Part shown: piece after piece, positions 1,436 through 6,010 of the stretch | Layout: every line of letters starts with the position of its first letter | Numbering within the stretch: position 1 is the stretch's first letter | Assembly (NCBI GenBank): GCA_001548435.1 | Contig: AP017308.1 | Coordinates: 2,365,030 to 2,429,029, forward strand | Direction of reading: 5' to 3' | From: Leptolyngbya sp. NIES-3755 | GTDB lineage: Bacteria > Cyanobacteriota > Cyanobacteriia > Leptolyngbyales > Leptolyngbyaceae | DNA length: 64,000 nt | Notes under the pieces: generated by a model | The model's database searches: none | What the model saw: the letters and a program-made list of their open reading frames with translations, nothing else | What the model was told of the DNA's origin: nothing | Position numbers and translations under genes: made by a program

Positions 1436-2146
1436 ATGCCTCAGACGACGCTTCAATCGGTTTTCACAGGACTCGCAGGAGTCACCCTTGCTTTCAGTGG
1501 AATGCCTCTTGCCCAAGCACAACTCCCGAACTGTCAGGCTCCTCGATCGAATGAATTCCTCTTGCTGATTGTGACCCGCACTCCAGAATCCCAAGCGCGG
1601 GTTCGCAGCGTCGTCTCTCGCACTGCTGATGTCTCAGTCTGCAACTATTTCGGTGAAACGGTCACACGAGTCGGCGGCTACCGAGATGCAGACACGGCAA
1701 ATTCTTGGGCAAATTACCTCAATGACACGGTTCGACTCCGAGCGTTTGTGGCAACTCCTCCTGGTGGAAGTCAGGTCGCCAATCGAGGAGATGTTCCGCC
1801 GGTTCAACCGCAACCTGTTCAACCCTTAGTCGTCCGTCCTCCGGTCGAATCTGCTTCTGGAGGCTACAACCCTCAACGCCTCGGAGAAGGTTTTGCAGTC
1901 ATCGTCAATCACTACAATCGTCCTGAAGTTGCCGTCCAAGTCAAACAAGTTTTGAACCGAAACATTGGACTGGCTTCATTTGAGCAGCGTCCTTATCTGT
2001 TAGCGGTGCAAACCACCGATCGCGGAGTTGCCAACTCGATTTTGCAGACTTTAAGCGATCGAGGATTTGCCGCGAGGTTGGTGAGAAGCGATCGGGTCAC
2101 ATTGCTCACGCCCGTAGTTCAAATCGAACCTGTGGGCGGTCAGTAA
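1436..2146 (+). CDS. Exported protein with two SPOR-like repeats
   Basis: The 236-residue product has a clear signal peptide (about residues 1-28, ending in AQA before QLPNC), so it is probably periplasmic or in the outer envelope. Two segments, roughly residues 38-107 and 155-232, look like diverged copies of one another. Each begins with a hydrophobic strand (FLLLIV, FAVIVN), has a central stretch of about 30 residues, and ends with a remark-worthy RxFVA or ARLVRS strand, as in SPOR-type or other sugar/peptidoglycan-binding folds. A proline/valine-rich linker (about 115-140) joins them. No catalytic motif is visible. The function is unknown; SPOR similarity is inference from pattern only. 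It starts 15 bases after ycf54. Confidence 0.75.
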   Translation: MPQTTLQSVFTGLAGVTLAFSGMPLAQAQLPNCQAPRSNEFLLLIVTRTPESQARVRSVVSRTADVSVCNYFGETVTRVGGYRDADTANSWANYLNDTVRLRAFVATPPGGSQVANRGDVPPVQPQPVQPLVVRPPVESASGGYNPQRLGEGFAVIVNHYNRPEVAVQVKQVLNRNIGLASFEQRPYLLAVQTTDRGVANSILQTLSDRGFAARLVRSDRVTLLTPVVQIEPVGGQ

Positions 2147-2153
2147 GCCTGAT

Positions 2154-2627
2154 ATGAGTGAAACCGTCTATATCGAAACGAGCATTTTGGGTTATCTCAC
2201 TGCCAGGTCAACTGACAATTTAATCCTGGCTGCGAACATGGAGATTACGAAAAACTGGTGGAACTCGCGCCGTACTGCTTTTGCTCTCTATGCTTCGGAA
2301 GCTGTACTAGATGAAGCAGCACAGGGAGACGCAGAAATCGCCGCTCAGCGACTGGAGTTTTTGCGTGATCTCCCCTTATTGGCATTAAACCAAGCCGTAC
2401 AAGACCTAGCAGTACAGTTCTTGACTCGAAGCAGCCTACCACCCAAAGCGAGAGTAGATGCCATCCACATCGCTGCTGCAACCGTTCACGGGATGGATTA
2501 TCTGTTAACGTGGAACTGTAAGCATATCGCCAATGCTCAAATTCAAAGAAAATTGGCTGAAATTAGTCACGATTCCGGTCGTCAATTGCCTATTCTTTGC
2601 ACACCCAACGAACTCATGGGAGATTAG
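2154..2627 (+). CDS. PIN-domain ribonuclease, VapC-like toxin
   Basis: The 157-residue product has the PIN-domain layout: an N-terminal strand with an acidic residue position (VYIETSILGY, here E at position 7 instead of the usual D), an acidic centre (EAVLDEAAQGD), and a C-terminal KARVDAIHIAAA block followed by LLTWNCKHIANA. PIN proteins of this kind cleave RNA with a metal ion and usually act as toxins. A 69-residue gene follows after 3 bases, which fits a toxin-partner pair, but the toxin is first in order, opposite to the usual VapBC arrangement. The activity is inferred from family; the YIET variant is common in this cyanobacterial subgroup. Confidence 0.8.
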   Translation: MSETVYIETSILGYLTARSTDNLILAANMEITKNWWNSRRTAFALYASEAVLDEAAQGDAEIAAQRLEFLRDLPLLALNQAVQDLAVQFLTRSSLPPKARVDAIHIAAATVHGMDYLLTWNCKHIANAQIQRKLAEISHDSGRQLPILCTPNELMGD

Positions 2628-2630
2628 GTT

Positions 2631-2840
2631 ATGTGGACAGATGAGATTGTTGAAGAGATCCACCGAATCCGCGAGGAATACGCAAAGTCTTTGAACGATG
2701 ATTTAGAGGCGATTTTTGCGGATCTACGCAGGAAGGAAGCTCAAAGTGGTCGAAAAGTCGTGGATCTGTCGCAGAAGTCACACAGTAGCGACTCAAAGCA
2801 GGATGTAAAAGATGTTAGCTTCTCAACACAATCATCATAG
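2631..2840 (+). CDS. Small protein, probable partner of the PIN-domain protein
   Basis: A 69-residue polypeptide starting 3 bases after the PIN gene stop, so translation of the two is likely coupled. The first 40 residues are charged and predicted helical (EIVEEIHRIREEYAKSLNDDLEAIFADLRRKE); the last 25 are Ser/Lys/Asp-rich and probably disordered. This composition is typical of antitoxins or partners that wrap around a PIN domain through a disordered tail, and resembles small cyanobacterial proteins encoded beside VapC-like genes. No DNA-binding motif can be seen. The antitoxin role is inferred from position only. Confidence 0.65.
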   Translation: MWTDEIVEEIHRIREEYAKSLNDDLEAIFADLRRKEAQSGRKVVDLSQKSHSSDSKQDVKDVSFSTQSS

Positions 2841-2879
2841 TGTCAATATTTGAGTGGAATTTGCCTGAGATGAAATAAG

Positions 2880-3263
2880 GTGGAAATGGGCGTAATATTG
2901 GTCGATCTTGGACAAGAAGACAGAGATTTGTATGCAAACTGGTGGACTTGGCGACCTGCGATCGAACTAATTAGAAGCTTTGATTTAATCGATGATGAAC
3001 GATTAGAGCGAATGGGATACAGCGGAGTCGGTGCTGAACTGAATGCCGAACAAGCACACATCATTGGGAGACGATTAAAAGAAGAAGTTCTACCGAAGAT
3101 ACAACCCAAAGAGCGTGTACTGCTGGACTTAATCGCTACGGGTGAGCCAGATGACGGAACACTTTACGATGACAATTGGTTTCAGAACTATGGTGCAAGC
3201 CGCGACTGGCTTGAAGAGTTTGCTAATTTCTGTCTCACGTCACAGGGTTTCAGAGTCTCTTGA
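2880..3263 (+). CDS. Conserved hypothetical protein
   Basis: A 127-residue soluble acidic protein with no recognised domain. Tryptophan-rich LYANWWTWRPAIELIRSF near the N-terminus and a C-terminal NYGASRDWLEEFANFCL block look conserved rather than random, and the codon use matches neighbouring genes. I recall similar uncharacterised cyanobacterial proteins but cannot assign a role. The frame can begin at GTG 2880 or ATG 2886; neither has a well-placed ribosome site. It sits between two toxin-type gene pairs. Confidence 0.65.
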   Translation: MEMGVILVDLGQEDRDLYANWWTWRPAIELIRSFDLIDDERLERMGYSGVGAELNAEQAHIIGRRLKEEVLPKIQPKERVLLDLIATGEPDDGTLYDDNWFQNYGASRDWLEEFANFCLTSQGFRVS

Positions 3264-3367
3264 TCCCAACAACAAAAGTGTTTCATCTGGTCATATTGAT
3301 GATCAGACTGAAAGAAAATTAGCATAGGTTAGGGCGATCGAAACTATGGGTGAGCAGCGATCGCGAA

Positions 3368-3658
3368 TCAAATTGCGTCACATCCCACATAGTAATCATA
3401 AGCGCTCAGATCAATTACCTCTGGGATTGCGCGTTGCAGTGGTTCAACCTGAGCAACCGATACCGGATAGCTATCTACCATCAGATTATCGGCAGCTTCT
3501 TGAAACAATCTCTGTAAATCGGGCAGCTCTATTGTATTGAGTACAGTTTCACCGACTAAGCGATCGCCGTTTTTTTCATACCAGCGCAATACTCTGATAA
3601 TTGAGTGAGAGTCAGGGCTTGAAGTCGATCGCGTTTGCACCTTAATTGGGTCAGTCAT
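3368..3658 (-). CDS. Probable immunity protein for the E3-type toxin
   Basis: A 96-residue acidic protein (MTDPIKVQTRSTS start) whose ATG lies 2 bases after the stop of the colicin E3-like toxin gene, the usual toxin-then-immunity order. The middle contains VLRWYEKNGDRLVGETVLN, and the C-terminal half is acidic and leucine-rich. An acidic surface suits binding to a basic rRNase. I cannot align it with the classical colicin E3 immunity protein by eye; it resembles a small family of uncharacterised proteins (DUF7683-type), which is recollection, not proof. The role rests on genomic position. Confidence 0.6.
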   Translation of the reverse strand: MTDPIKVQTRSTSSPDSHSIIRVLRWYEKNGDRLVGETVLNTIELPDLQRLFQEAADNLMVDSYPVSVAQVEPLQRAIPEVIDLSAYDYYVGCDAI

Positions 3659-3660
3659 GA

Positions 3661-3915
3661 TTATGGCTCTACCTCGTAATTAGGATTTGCTGGTTTCAGT
3701 TGTTCGCCTGTAATCGGATCAAACTCACCGAGATGCTTACCCTTCTTATCATATTTCTCGATCGTGCCGTGCCGACTGTCCCACTCGTAAATATTGCTCT
3801 CTTCGTCTTTCCATCGCTTCCTCAATCCGCCGCCCCCTTGAACAGAAGTTTTAGGCTTTACAAGTTTTGCATTAGGGAAAGCCTCCAAAAGTTTAGGAGC
3901 AGGAATATACGGCAT
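3661..3915 (-). CDS. Stand-alone colicin E3-type 16S rRNA ribonuclease toxin
   Basis: The 84-residue product corresponds to the C-terminal cytotoxic domain of colicin E3, which cuts 16S rRNA in the decoding centre. Shared features in order are the glycine-rich QGGGG linker, KRW, IYEWDSRHGTIEKY, KHLGEFDP and TGEQLK. The E3 catalytic Asp510, His513 and Glu517 are present at identical spacing (D, +3 H, +4 E in WDSRHGTIE). The E3 residue Arg545 aligns with Tyr (NPNYE). No translocation or receptor-binding domain precedes it; the gene begins MPYIPAPKLLEAFPNAKLV. It is therefore either an intracellular toxin or a released warhead module. A putative immunity gene follows 2 bases later. Family similarity is direct; activity is inferred. 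Confidence 0.8.
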   Translation of the reverse strand: MPYIPAPKLLEAFPNAKLVKPKTSVQGGGGLRKRWKDEESNIYEWDSRHGTIEKYDKKGKHLGEFDPITGEQLKPANPNYEVEP

Positions 3916-3984
3916 TTATGAACTTTGTAGAGAAGATGGGTTCTAAGCTTACCCTTTCCTCTAGCTACAAGTTTCGCTTGGTCG

Positions 3985-4398
3985 TCAATCATCTGGAAGG
4001 AAAACGTCTTTAATCTCGTTCGGAATTTTTGTGGGTCGGTTGCGGTTAGCATCGAAATAGCACCATTCAGTGAGCGATCGACACATCATTTTCTGATCCG
4101 AAACCCGCATAAATTCAACCTGTCGGAAAAACGTCGATAACGTCCCCCGCTCCACCCAAGTCGTTAATCGAATCATATCCCCGACAAATGCAGGCGCTAG
4201 ATAGTCTACTTCGTGCCGTCGAACAAACCAGATGATTTGGTTTTTCTCATCGAATTCGCGGGTATAGCCCTTAGAACGATAAGCCGCGATCGCAATCTCT
4301 TGAATCCATTGCACGTAAACCACATTGTTCAAGTGATTTTGCACGTCGCAATGCTGCGGTTGCACTTCTCGGTCTTCGGAATAGACGATCGCAGACAT
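3985..4398 (-). CDS. Acyl-CoA thioesterase, 4-HBT hotdog family
   Basis: Members of the 4-hydroxybenzoyl-CoA thioesterase family hydrolyse acyl thioesters. The 137-residue product, starting at ATG 4398 (MSAIVYSEDREVQPQHCDVQNHLNN), has the family's active-site block QHCDVQNHLNNVVYVQW, with Asp in the position of the catalytic acidic residue and the hotdog helix IQEIAIAAYRS. A longer upstream reading (to 4536) exists but overlaps the next gene by some 70 bases and has no family similarity, so I chose the internal start. In cyanobacteria relatives act on 1,4-dihydroxy-2-naphthoyl-CoA in phylloquinone synthesis, but the substrate cannot be fixed here. Confidence 0.85.
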   Translation of the reverse strand: MSAIVYSEDREVQPQHCDVQNHLNNVVYVQWIQEIAIAAYRSKGYTREFDEKNQIIWFVRRHEVDYLAPAFVGDMIRLTTWVERGTLSTFFRQVEFMRVSDQKMMCRSLTEWCYFDANRNRPTKIPNEIKDVFLPDD

Positions 4399-4465
4399 AC
4401 AGAACCTTTCTAAACGCTCTCCTGGTTTTAGCGCAGATTGTTTAATTTCACTTGAGTCTAGAGAG

Positions 4466-4966
4466 TTAGGGAACGCCAGCAATTTGAACGAACAGCGATC
4501 GCCAACTGCCTCCGAGCCACCAATCTCCCACCACACAAACCACGATGCCGAGAAGCGATCCCATGATGACTTGAACGGGAGTATGTCCTAACAGTTCTTT
4601 CAGGCGGGCTTCGTTGAAATGATGATCGCCTGTAAATAATTCATCGACAATTTGGTTCAAGATTTTGGCTTGTTTGCCTGCGGCTTGGCGGACTCCTTGG
4701 GAATCGTACATCACGATAAAAGCCACGATCGTCGCGATCGCGAATTGCGTACTGTCCCAACCGTCGGTTAATCCGACTCCGGTTGCCAGTGCGGTTACGA
4801 GTGCCGAATGAGAGCTTGGCATTCCGCCAGTTTCGACCAGCACTTTGAAATTGACTTTGCGGTGCACGATCAATTCGATGATCAGTTTGGTCGCTTGGGC
4901 AATTAAACAGGCAATGAGGGCTAAGAGCAGCACTCTGTTATCAACAATGTCACCAAAGTCCTGCAT
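4466..4966 (-). CDS. DUF212 / acid phosphatase-related integral membrane protein
   Basis: A 166-residue protein of the divergent PAP2 (phosphatidic acid phosphatase-like, DUF212) family. It begins MQDFGDIVDNRVLLLALIAC at 4966 and has about three membrane segments. The GGMPSSHSALVTALATG block holds the conserved PSSHS motif of PAP2 phosphatases, followed by VMYDSQGVRQAAG. The substrate is unknown. An ORF extension upstream to 5086 is made of the GAGGTGCGAGGTGT repeat and is not coding. It lies 120 bases downstream of crtE on the same strand. Confidence 0.88.
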   Translation of the reverse strand: MQDFGDIVDNRVLLLALIACLIAQATKLIIELIVHRKVNFKVLVETGGMPSSHSALVTALATGVGLTDGWDSTQFAIATIVAFIVMYDSQGVRQAAGKQAKILNQIVDELFTGDHHFNEARLKELLGHTPVQVIMGSLLGIVVCVVGDWWLGGSWRSLFVQIAGVP

Positions 4967-4998
4967 TCGTTTAGGGGGAGAGAGGTAGGGGGGGGGGT

Positions 4999-5080
4999 GA
5001 GGTGCGAGGTGTGAGGTGCGAGGTGTGAGGTGTAGAGTGTAGTAGAGACACAGACCTCCCCGCACCTCACACCTCGCACC
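4999..5080. repeat. Tandem 14-mers inside a perfect 20-bp inverted repeat
   Basis: Between crtE and the DUF212 gene three 14-bp units of GAGGTGCGAGGTGT type lie head to tail (4999-5012, 5013-5026, 5027-5040, the last degenerate). The first part (5001-5020) is perfectly complementary to 5061-5080, so the transcript can form a long hairpin with about 40 bases of loop. The right arm ends 6 bases short of the crtE stop codon. It could stabilise or terminate the crtE message. Confidence 0.9.
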
Positions 5081-5086
5081 CCGCAC

Positions 5087-6010
5087 CTAATTCTTACGAG
5101 CGGTAATGTAATCAGCGATCGCCATTAATGGAGCGGCTTTTTCACCGAATCCAGCGACTTCCGCTTTTGCCTGTTCGACCAGTTGTTCTGCTTGGCGGCG
5201 CGACTCTTCCATTCCAAGTAGACGCGGATAAGTGGCTTTCTCGACATTCATATCTTTACCGATACTCTTGCCGAGTTCTTCTTGCGTGGAGGTGATATCG
5301 AGCAAATCATCGACGATTTGGAACGCTAACCCGATCGCTTGAGCATATCGAGTCAAGTGCTGGATGTCAGAATCGGAACCCCCTGCGAGAATGCCACCGC
5401 TGACGACCGAAGCTTCAAGTAGAGCGGCGGTTTTGTGCGTGTGGATAAAATTCAGCGTGTCGAGGGTGACATCTTTTTTGCCTTCACATTCGAGATCGAC
5501 GACCTGACCGCCGACGAGTCCAGCCGCTCCGACTGCGCGACCGAGACGAGAAACAACTTTGATTAAGCGATCGGCGGGTACATTTTTCGTTTCTTCAACG
5601 ATATGCTCAAACGCATAAGCGAGTAAACCGTCTCCCGCAAGAATCGCGACTGCTTCCCCGTACACTTTGTGATTCGTTAATTTGCCGCGTCGATAATCGT
5701 CGTTATCCATTGCGGGCAAATCGTCGTGAATCAGCGACATCGTATGAATCATTTCGAGAGCGCAGGCGGTTGGCATTGCCATTTCGGGAGTTCCGCCGAG
5801 TAAGTCACAAGTTGCGAGGCACAAGACCGGACGTAATCTTTTTCCGCCTGCGAACAGGGAGTAGCGCATTGCTTTGTAGATTTCATCTGGATAGACGATA
5901 GGAAAAGCTCGATCGAGGGCGGTTTCCACTTGTTGTTGCTTTGCCGCTAAATAGCCTTTCAAATCAAATTGGGAGGCTTGATTTGATTGCGTTTCTCCTG
6001 TCACGACCAT
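5087..6010 (-). CDS. crtE: Geranylgeranyl diphosphate synthase
   Basis: CrtE adds isopentenyl diphosphate units to give C20 geranylgeranyl diphosphate, the precursor of carotenoids, chlorophyll phytol, plastoquinone and tocopherol. The 307 residues contain the first aspartate-rich motif [15 protein letters not shown] (about 95-109), the second FQIVDDLLD (about 230), and GGKRLRP near residue 55. It starts MVVTGETQS at 6010. It has the class II (plant and cyanobacterial) pattern with two residues between the first paired aspartates. folD lies 40 bases upstream on the same strand, so the two are probably one transcript. Confidence 0.96.

Follow-up and report, generated by a model that had tools for sequence, protein, structure and literature searches.

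The E3 rRNases are textbook examples of delivered weapons, and the locus described here raises the question of what such an enzyme does as a free-standing protein of 84 residues on the chromosome of a cyanobacterium. The DNA analysed (the window) is a stretch of 64,000 nucleotides from Leptolyngbya sp. NIES-3755, and its relevant features are collected in Table 1. An earlier note had read the 84-residue ORF as a colicin E3 catalytic domain with the catalytic D, H and E at the E3 spacing, a Tyr in the place of Arg545 and no receptor or translocation domain, followed 2 bases later by a small acidic gene, and had proposed a toxin/immunity-like pair. Each of these points is borne out below, the last of them by the profile match, the colicin E3 match, the predicted Im3 fold of the partner and the conserved pairing. 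The reading that we favour, with a probability of roughly two in three, is that the pair is a two-gene toxin–antitoxin-like module, a bare E3 rRNase with an Im3-fold blocker, acting in the cell that produces it.

Table 1. Features at and around the toxin–partner pair, in window positions
Feature	Position	Strand	Basis
Variable slot holding the pair	2147..3983	.	Flank alignments to congeners
PIN-like ORF, neighbour in the slot, not part of the pair	2154..2627	+	19.6 bits against a Pfam cut-off of 23.6
69-aa ORF following the PIN-like gene	2631..2840	+	ORF list
127-aa ORF in the slot	2880-3263		Unmatched in Pfam, NCBIfam, PADLOC and PHROG at the thresholds used
96-aa DUF7683 partner (immunity/antitoxin) with predicted Im3 fold	3368..3658	-	Pfam; predicted structure
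Free-standing E3-type rRNase toxin, 84 aa (PF09000)	3661..3915	-	Pfam full-profile match; colicin E3 alignment; catalytic columns
Thioesterase-like gene, slot flank, ending 69 bases upstream of the toxin	3985..4536	-	Pfam; congener alignment

The toxin ORF matches the Pfam family PF09000 ('Cytotoxic') at 129.9 bits (E 4.6e-38; curated cut-off 22 bits), its residues 4-83 covering positions 1-80 of the 80 in the profile, and it is the sole PF09000 match in the organism's own genome (6.76 Mb). Its best match in the PDB by phmmer is colicin E3 (1e44_B, E 4.1e-17), aligned to E3 residues 464-546, and these E-values rule out a chance similarity to PF09000 or colicin E3. A TAA lies in frame directly 5' of the toxin ATG, so the ORF does not continue a longer gene from upstream. 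The 84 residues are nearly all cytotoxic domain, with none of the receptor-binding or translocation domains of colicins (Pfam, ORF check) and none of the N-terminal trafficking domains of multidomain polymorphic toxins (Pfam, upstream-stop check); inspection by eye shows no signal peptide, and the computed pI is 7.9. The NCBIfam search gave no match above a cut-off, and searches of PADLOC and PHROG placed the toxin/partner pair in no known defence or phage family.

Counted along the phmmer alignment, D46, H49, E53 and H61 of the toxin correspond to D510, H513, E517 and H526 of colicin E3, and R32, R34, T51 and Y80 to R495, R497, E515 and R545. The equivalents of D510, H513, E517 and H526 are kept in all 15 free-standing cyanobacterial toxins, and those of R495 and of R497 are each Arg in 14 of the 15; the E515 position, Thr in the window toxin, is varied across the family. 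The second conserved His singled out under other numbering in the accessible text of PMC3482391 is taken to be H526. At the R545 column Arg is found in 88 of the 94 domains compared (a set from which eight duplicate scan loci were dropped and the fragments of G403 and G405 left out) and Tyr in three, namely two of the 15 free-standing copies (the window and G463) and one fused Streptomyces toxin. Because mutation of R545 costs colicin E3 much of its activity, with E515 also named (PMC4905994, in the portion available), Tyr80 bears on the strength of the window toxin, and it counts against a functional toxin–antitoxin reading; we treat R545 as an activity-enhancing residue and not as one that defines the E3 rRNase family. 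The catalytic His is itself replaced by Lys in the fused cyanobacterial toxins of G042 and G599, a variant noted for the family (PMC3482391, available text).

The partner lies downstream on the same strand after a gap of 2 bases, is acidic (computed pI 4.4) and scores 73.1 bits against DUF7683 (PF24731; curated cut-off 27), a family name not found in the literature searched. Its predicted fold is the Im3 fold, the model matching Im3 in a VIA-align comparison as would be expected of a colicin E3 immunity protein. A six-row partner profile matches Im3 weakly (E 0.023, with unrelated calmodulins at 0.047), so the Im3 assignment is carried by the predicted fold. The partner differs from the colicin-type immunity proteins in being a DUF7683 protein remote from Im3 (21% identity), and an S6-type immunity protein scores 16.5 bits against DUF7683, below the cut-off, with an hhalign probability of 25. 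No DNA-binding Pfam domain, a part common to antitoxins and not universal among them, was matched in the partner, the first 20 residues of which are modelled with low confidence. The DUF7683 partners in G469 (L126 6058-6744) and G545 (L127 6875-7543) have a C-terminal extension of about 115 aa, which in G545, read from the duplicate L048, has no Pfam match above a cut-off. As separate observations, DUF7683 is fused behind a DUF6265 domain at L020 2083-2745, in a genome with 7% contamination, and DUF7683 genes without an E3 toxin lie 3' of a 190-aa ORF at L018 7654-7905 and L019 7779-8030, this ORF matching Zeta_toxin at 50 bits in L018.

Homologous pairs in other cyanobacteria, which the earlier note had named as support for its reading, were found in two overlapping genome sets. 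Among 386 genomes of the phylum, PF09000 and DUF7683 each occur at seven places in six genomes and are neighbours at four; among 388 genomes of the order of G127, PF09000 occurs at 19 places (18 genomes) and DUF7683 at 20 (19 genomes), the two adjoin at 15 places, and in 13 of these the toxin is free-standing. Elsewhere in the order set the E3 domain stands without DUF7683 (G042, G078, G440, G614), and five of the 20 DUF7683 places are without PF09000 (G145, G187, G433, G526, G588). Together with the window and Anabaena lutea (L038), the 13 bring the free-standing toxins to 15 (76-84 aa, eight family codes). All 14 copies examined start just before the domain and have a stop in frame 3-14 codons ahead of the domain match. 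Few genomes carry PF09000 in any build (18 of 388, 6 of 386), which is a point against the toxin–antitoxin reading.

In a genome scan, the best 80 of 223 relatives all had a downstream ORF of 74-222 aa starting between -47 and +82 bases from the toxin stop; short ORFs are common, so the pairing claim rests on DUF7683 and not on this count. From other phyla, all ten partner proteins sent to Pfam match DUF7683, nine of them above the cut-off. Among the same best 80 of 223, the toxin ORF is 100 aa or less in eight of nine cyanobacterial loci (two of the nine being of one genome) versus 6 of 71 others (Fisher p 8.6e-7); of these six, L056 starts too near the end of its locus to judge, and L068, L071 and L082 lie near S-pyocin- or Rhs-type ORFs (by eye). 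Fused E3 domains also end larger cyanobacterial proteins, in G127 (contig 27), G042 and G599. As a separate observation, a 3212-aa protein at L015 7031-16669 combines RHS-like repeats (by eye) with a terminal E3 domain whose catalytic His is Lys.

Both genes of the pair appear to be maintained. For the toxin, pN is below pS in 91 of 91 pairs, and dN/dS is below 1 in all 43 toxin pairs and all 42 partner pairs with dS below 1.5, with values of 0.13-0.48 in the 16 closest toxin pairs; judged by these ratios, purifying selection acts on the free-standing copies. Distances among the toxins correlate with those among the partners (Mantel r 0.62, p 0.0025, n=14), both analyses being based on 14 copies without that of Anabaena lutea, the partner of which was scored with a profile built in this analysis (150 bits) and not by Pfam. 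A quickly searched tree of 92 rows and 84 columns, without L082 and the fused G614 toxin (domain under 60 aa), clusters the 15 free-standing toxins with the short G078 and G440 sequences (SH-aLRT 86) and places the fused G127a, G042 and G599 domains outside this cluster; with so few columns and a long-branch warning (G078 with G440), it is indicative only.

The history of the window locus was followed in seven congeners. The flanks align at 79-81% identity up to window position 2146 (G404) or 2123 (G405) and resume at 3984, and between them both genomes hold about 0.6 kb of other sequence encoding a 164-aa AAA_33 P-loop ORF (L195 3085-3579). G408 has both flanks and is missing almost the whole thioesterase gene together with the pair, and G403 has the neighbourhood from window position 4473 on (86% identity) with a 90-base scrap of the toxin and no partner; the match of G402 to the window ends at a PAP2 gene, and the contigs of G406 and G407 end near that gene or the slot. 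Elsewhere in the G405 genome a toxin frame is broken by stops and the adjoining DUF7683 gene is intact. These comparisons indicate that the slot is variable, and that at least once a toxin broke and its partner stayed. The G403 scrap and the broken G405 toxin with its intact partner are also predicted by orphan-immunity models, and count to that extent against the toxin–antitoxin reading. Within the slot, the 69-aa ORF is perhaps the antitoxin of the PIN-like gene, judged by its position.

To describe the surroundings of the pairs, the flanks of 14 copies were scanned, 96 of about 134 listed ORFs being covered (84 in one Pfam batch, with 25 of 160 families among the matches listed, and 12 larger ORFs singly) and motif searches by script added. 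Most of the flanking ORFs that were identified are housekeeping genes and some are transposases, and no polymorphic-toxin, large toxin or toxin-secretion gene was seen at the 14 loci among the matches listed for these 96 ORFs, nor any carrier-like neighbour common to the loci. Toxin–antitoxin-type genes lie within 4.5 kb in five of the 14 loci: the PIN-like ORF of the window (below the cut-off), PIN in G127 and G534, MazE with PemK/MazF in G424 and a HigBA-like pair in G577. Some copies, such as those in G469 and G607, are near transposases, which makes selfish persistence possible. On the 5' side of the toxin, six copies (G070, G469, G568, G577, G607, G613) have a common sequence that includes, by eye, a box like GATAAT or AATAAT about 30 bases before the start, where there may be a promoter belonging to the unit itself; no such box was seen by eye in the window copy, which follows the thioesterase-like gene on the same strand. 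A 1051-aa TIR-CHASE2 protein (L133 231-3386) was noted near the G534 pair.

Nothing seen delivers the toxin and the neighbours differ between genomes, from which we infer that the producer is its most likely target, and the retention of the same unit in other cyanobacteria suggests a toxin–antitoxin pair acting inside the cell. Two small adjacent genes without a delivery part is also the arrangement of type II toxin–antitoxin systems. The sequence around the E3 target site has three occurrences in the own genome. On the favoured reading the first gene would encode a bare E3-family rRNase that cuts 16S rRNA at the decoding site and so stops translation, and the second an Im3-fold protein that would bind and block it as Im3 does. 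The toxin would act in its own cell when the partner falls short, as on loss of the module, under stress or in phage takeover. The unit itself is found at differing places from genome to genome and decays when not kept. The cut expected is that of the E3 rRNases, between A1493 and G1494 (PMC9990079, available portion).

The toxin gene precedes that of the partner, as polymorphic-toxin cassettes are ordered, and the antitoxin does not come first, which is a point against a toxin–antitoxin module. The pair could accordingly be a spare toxin–immunity cassette of a polymorphic toxin system, silent until recombined onto the 3' end of a large toxin gene: this order and stand-alone cassettes, described there in general, are typical of such systems (PMC3482391, accessible text), and the same E3 domain ends the larger proteins of G127 (contig 27), G042 and G599. 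We consider this unlikely, as no large toxin or toxin-secretion gene appeared among the matches listed for 96 of about 134 flanking ORFs, the own genome has no RHS repeat (the genome-wide search covered RHS and not the CdiA, VgrG and WXG families), and dN/dS below 1 speaks for the free-standing form being in use. A bacteriocin released on lysis or by an unknown export route and entering kin via a carrier, with the partner as immunity protein, would accord with the delivered E3-family toxins of the review PMC9990079 (in the part available) and with the protection of cells shown for an S6-type immunity gene (PMC4905994, likewise); it is rather improbable for a toxin of 84 aa with no apparent signal peptide, receptor or translocation domain and no carrier candidate seen common to the loci. 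That the window toxin is a decaying tail of weakened catalysis, kept only for its immunity gene, draws on Tyr80, on the fragments of G403 and G405 and on the DUF7683 genes without PF09000 (5 of 20 places in the 388-genome set), and is very improbable given a frame intact across the whole domain with the triad and H526 kept, the same Tyr in the G463 copy and a fused Streptomyces toxin, and purifying selection on the free-standing copies. The earlier note had left the choice between a toxin–antitoxin module and a polymorphic-toxin leftover; the 15 cyanobacterial copies, their intact catalytic residues and dN/dS below 1 favour a kept free-standing module, and a leftover is not favoured for the window. 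Leftovers do occur elsewhere: besides the G403 scrap and the stop-broken G405 toxin, three loci in other phyla carry a short E3 end next to ORFs that by eye resemble S-pyocin or Rhs.

The favoured toxin–antitoxin-like module may be set beside known systems. With colicin E3, cloacin DF13 and pyocin S6 it has in common the PF09000 domain, the catalytic residues and a small partner gene directly downstream; unlike them, its toxin is without receptor or translocation domain and lies on a cyanobacterial chromosome. The Tox-ColE3 toxins of polymorphic systems, including CdiA-CT of E. cloacae, have the same domain and the toxin–immunity order, whereas the window pair has no parent toxin seen nearby. 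In the accessible text of PMC3482391, Tox-ColE3 is described with cyanobacteria included and with Imm-Cloacin and Imm45 as immunity proteins, and use as a toxin–antitoxin system is remarked for Tox-RES and Ntox24 and not in the Tox-ColE3 entry. Small intracellular pairs are also found among the type II RNases acting on 16S rRNA (RelS–RelI; RelE1, a MazF), but RelS is folded like RNase T1/RelE and its cut falls in the anti-Shine-Dalgarno end instead of the decoding site, so that its published fold rules out RelS–RelI as an E3-fold system (PMC13284704, as far as available). A search by title or start of abstract, with subscription papers largely outside it, found no report of an E3-fold toxin–antitoxin module. 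The broader proposition, to which we give even odds, is that an E3-fold decoding-site rRNase left interbacterial warfare and in one cyanobacterial lineage is now a self-contained intracellular toxin–antitoxin family whose antitoxin is the Im3-fold DUF7683 and which perhaps serves in phage defence or in holding on to its slot. If true, this would illustrate the passage of a bacteriocin domain to a resident toxin–antitoxin module and would add a decoding-site cutter to the intracellular toxins, and the unnamed Pfam family DUF7683 gains a testable role as an E3 immunity protein.

Beyond the chromosomes, a plasmid copy of the window locus was considered and rejected: window positions 2100-5100 had no near match in 72,556 plasmid records, and the toxin protein matched 881 such records, mostly colicin- or cloacin-like. 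A phage origin was likewise considered and set aside; a phage collection gave four weak matches (49-51 bits), and viral contigs gave 28 relatives that are 48-61% identical. A free-standing pair was also observed outside the cyanobacteria, in a Thiotrichaceae MAG (L037 3255-3500), where an 82-aa E3 ORF has a DUF7683-like partner (80 bits with the profile built in this analysis) and a PIN gene upstream.
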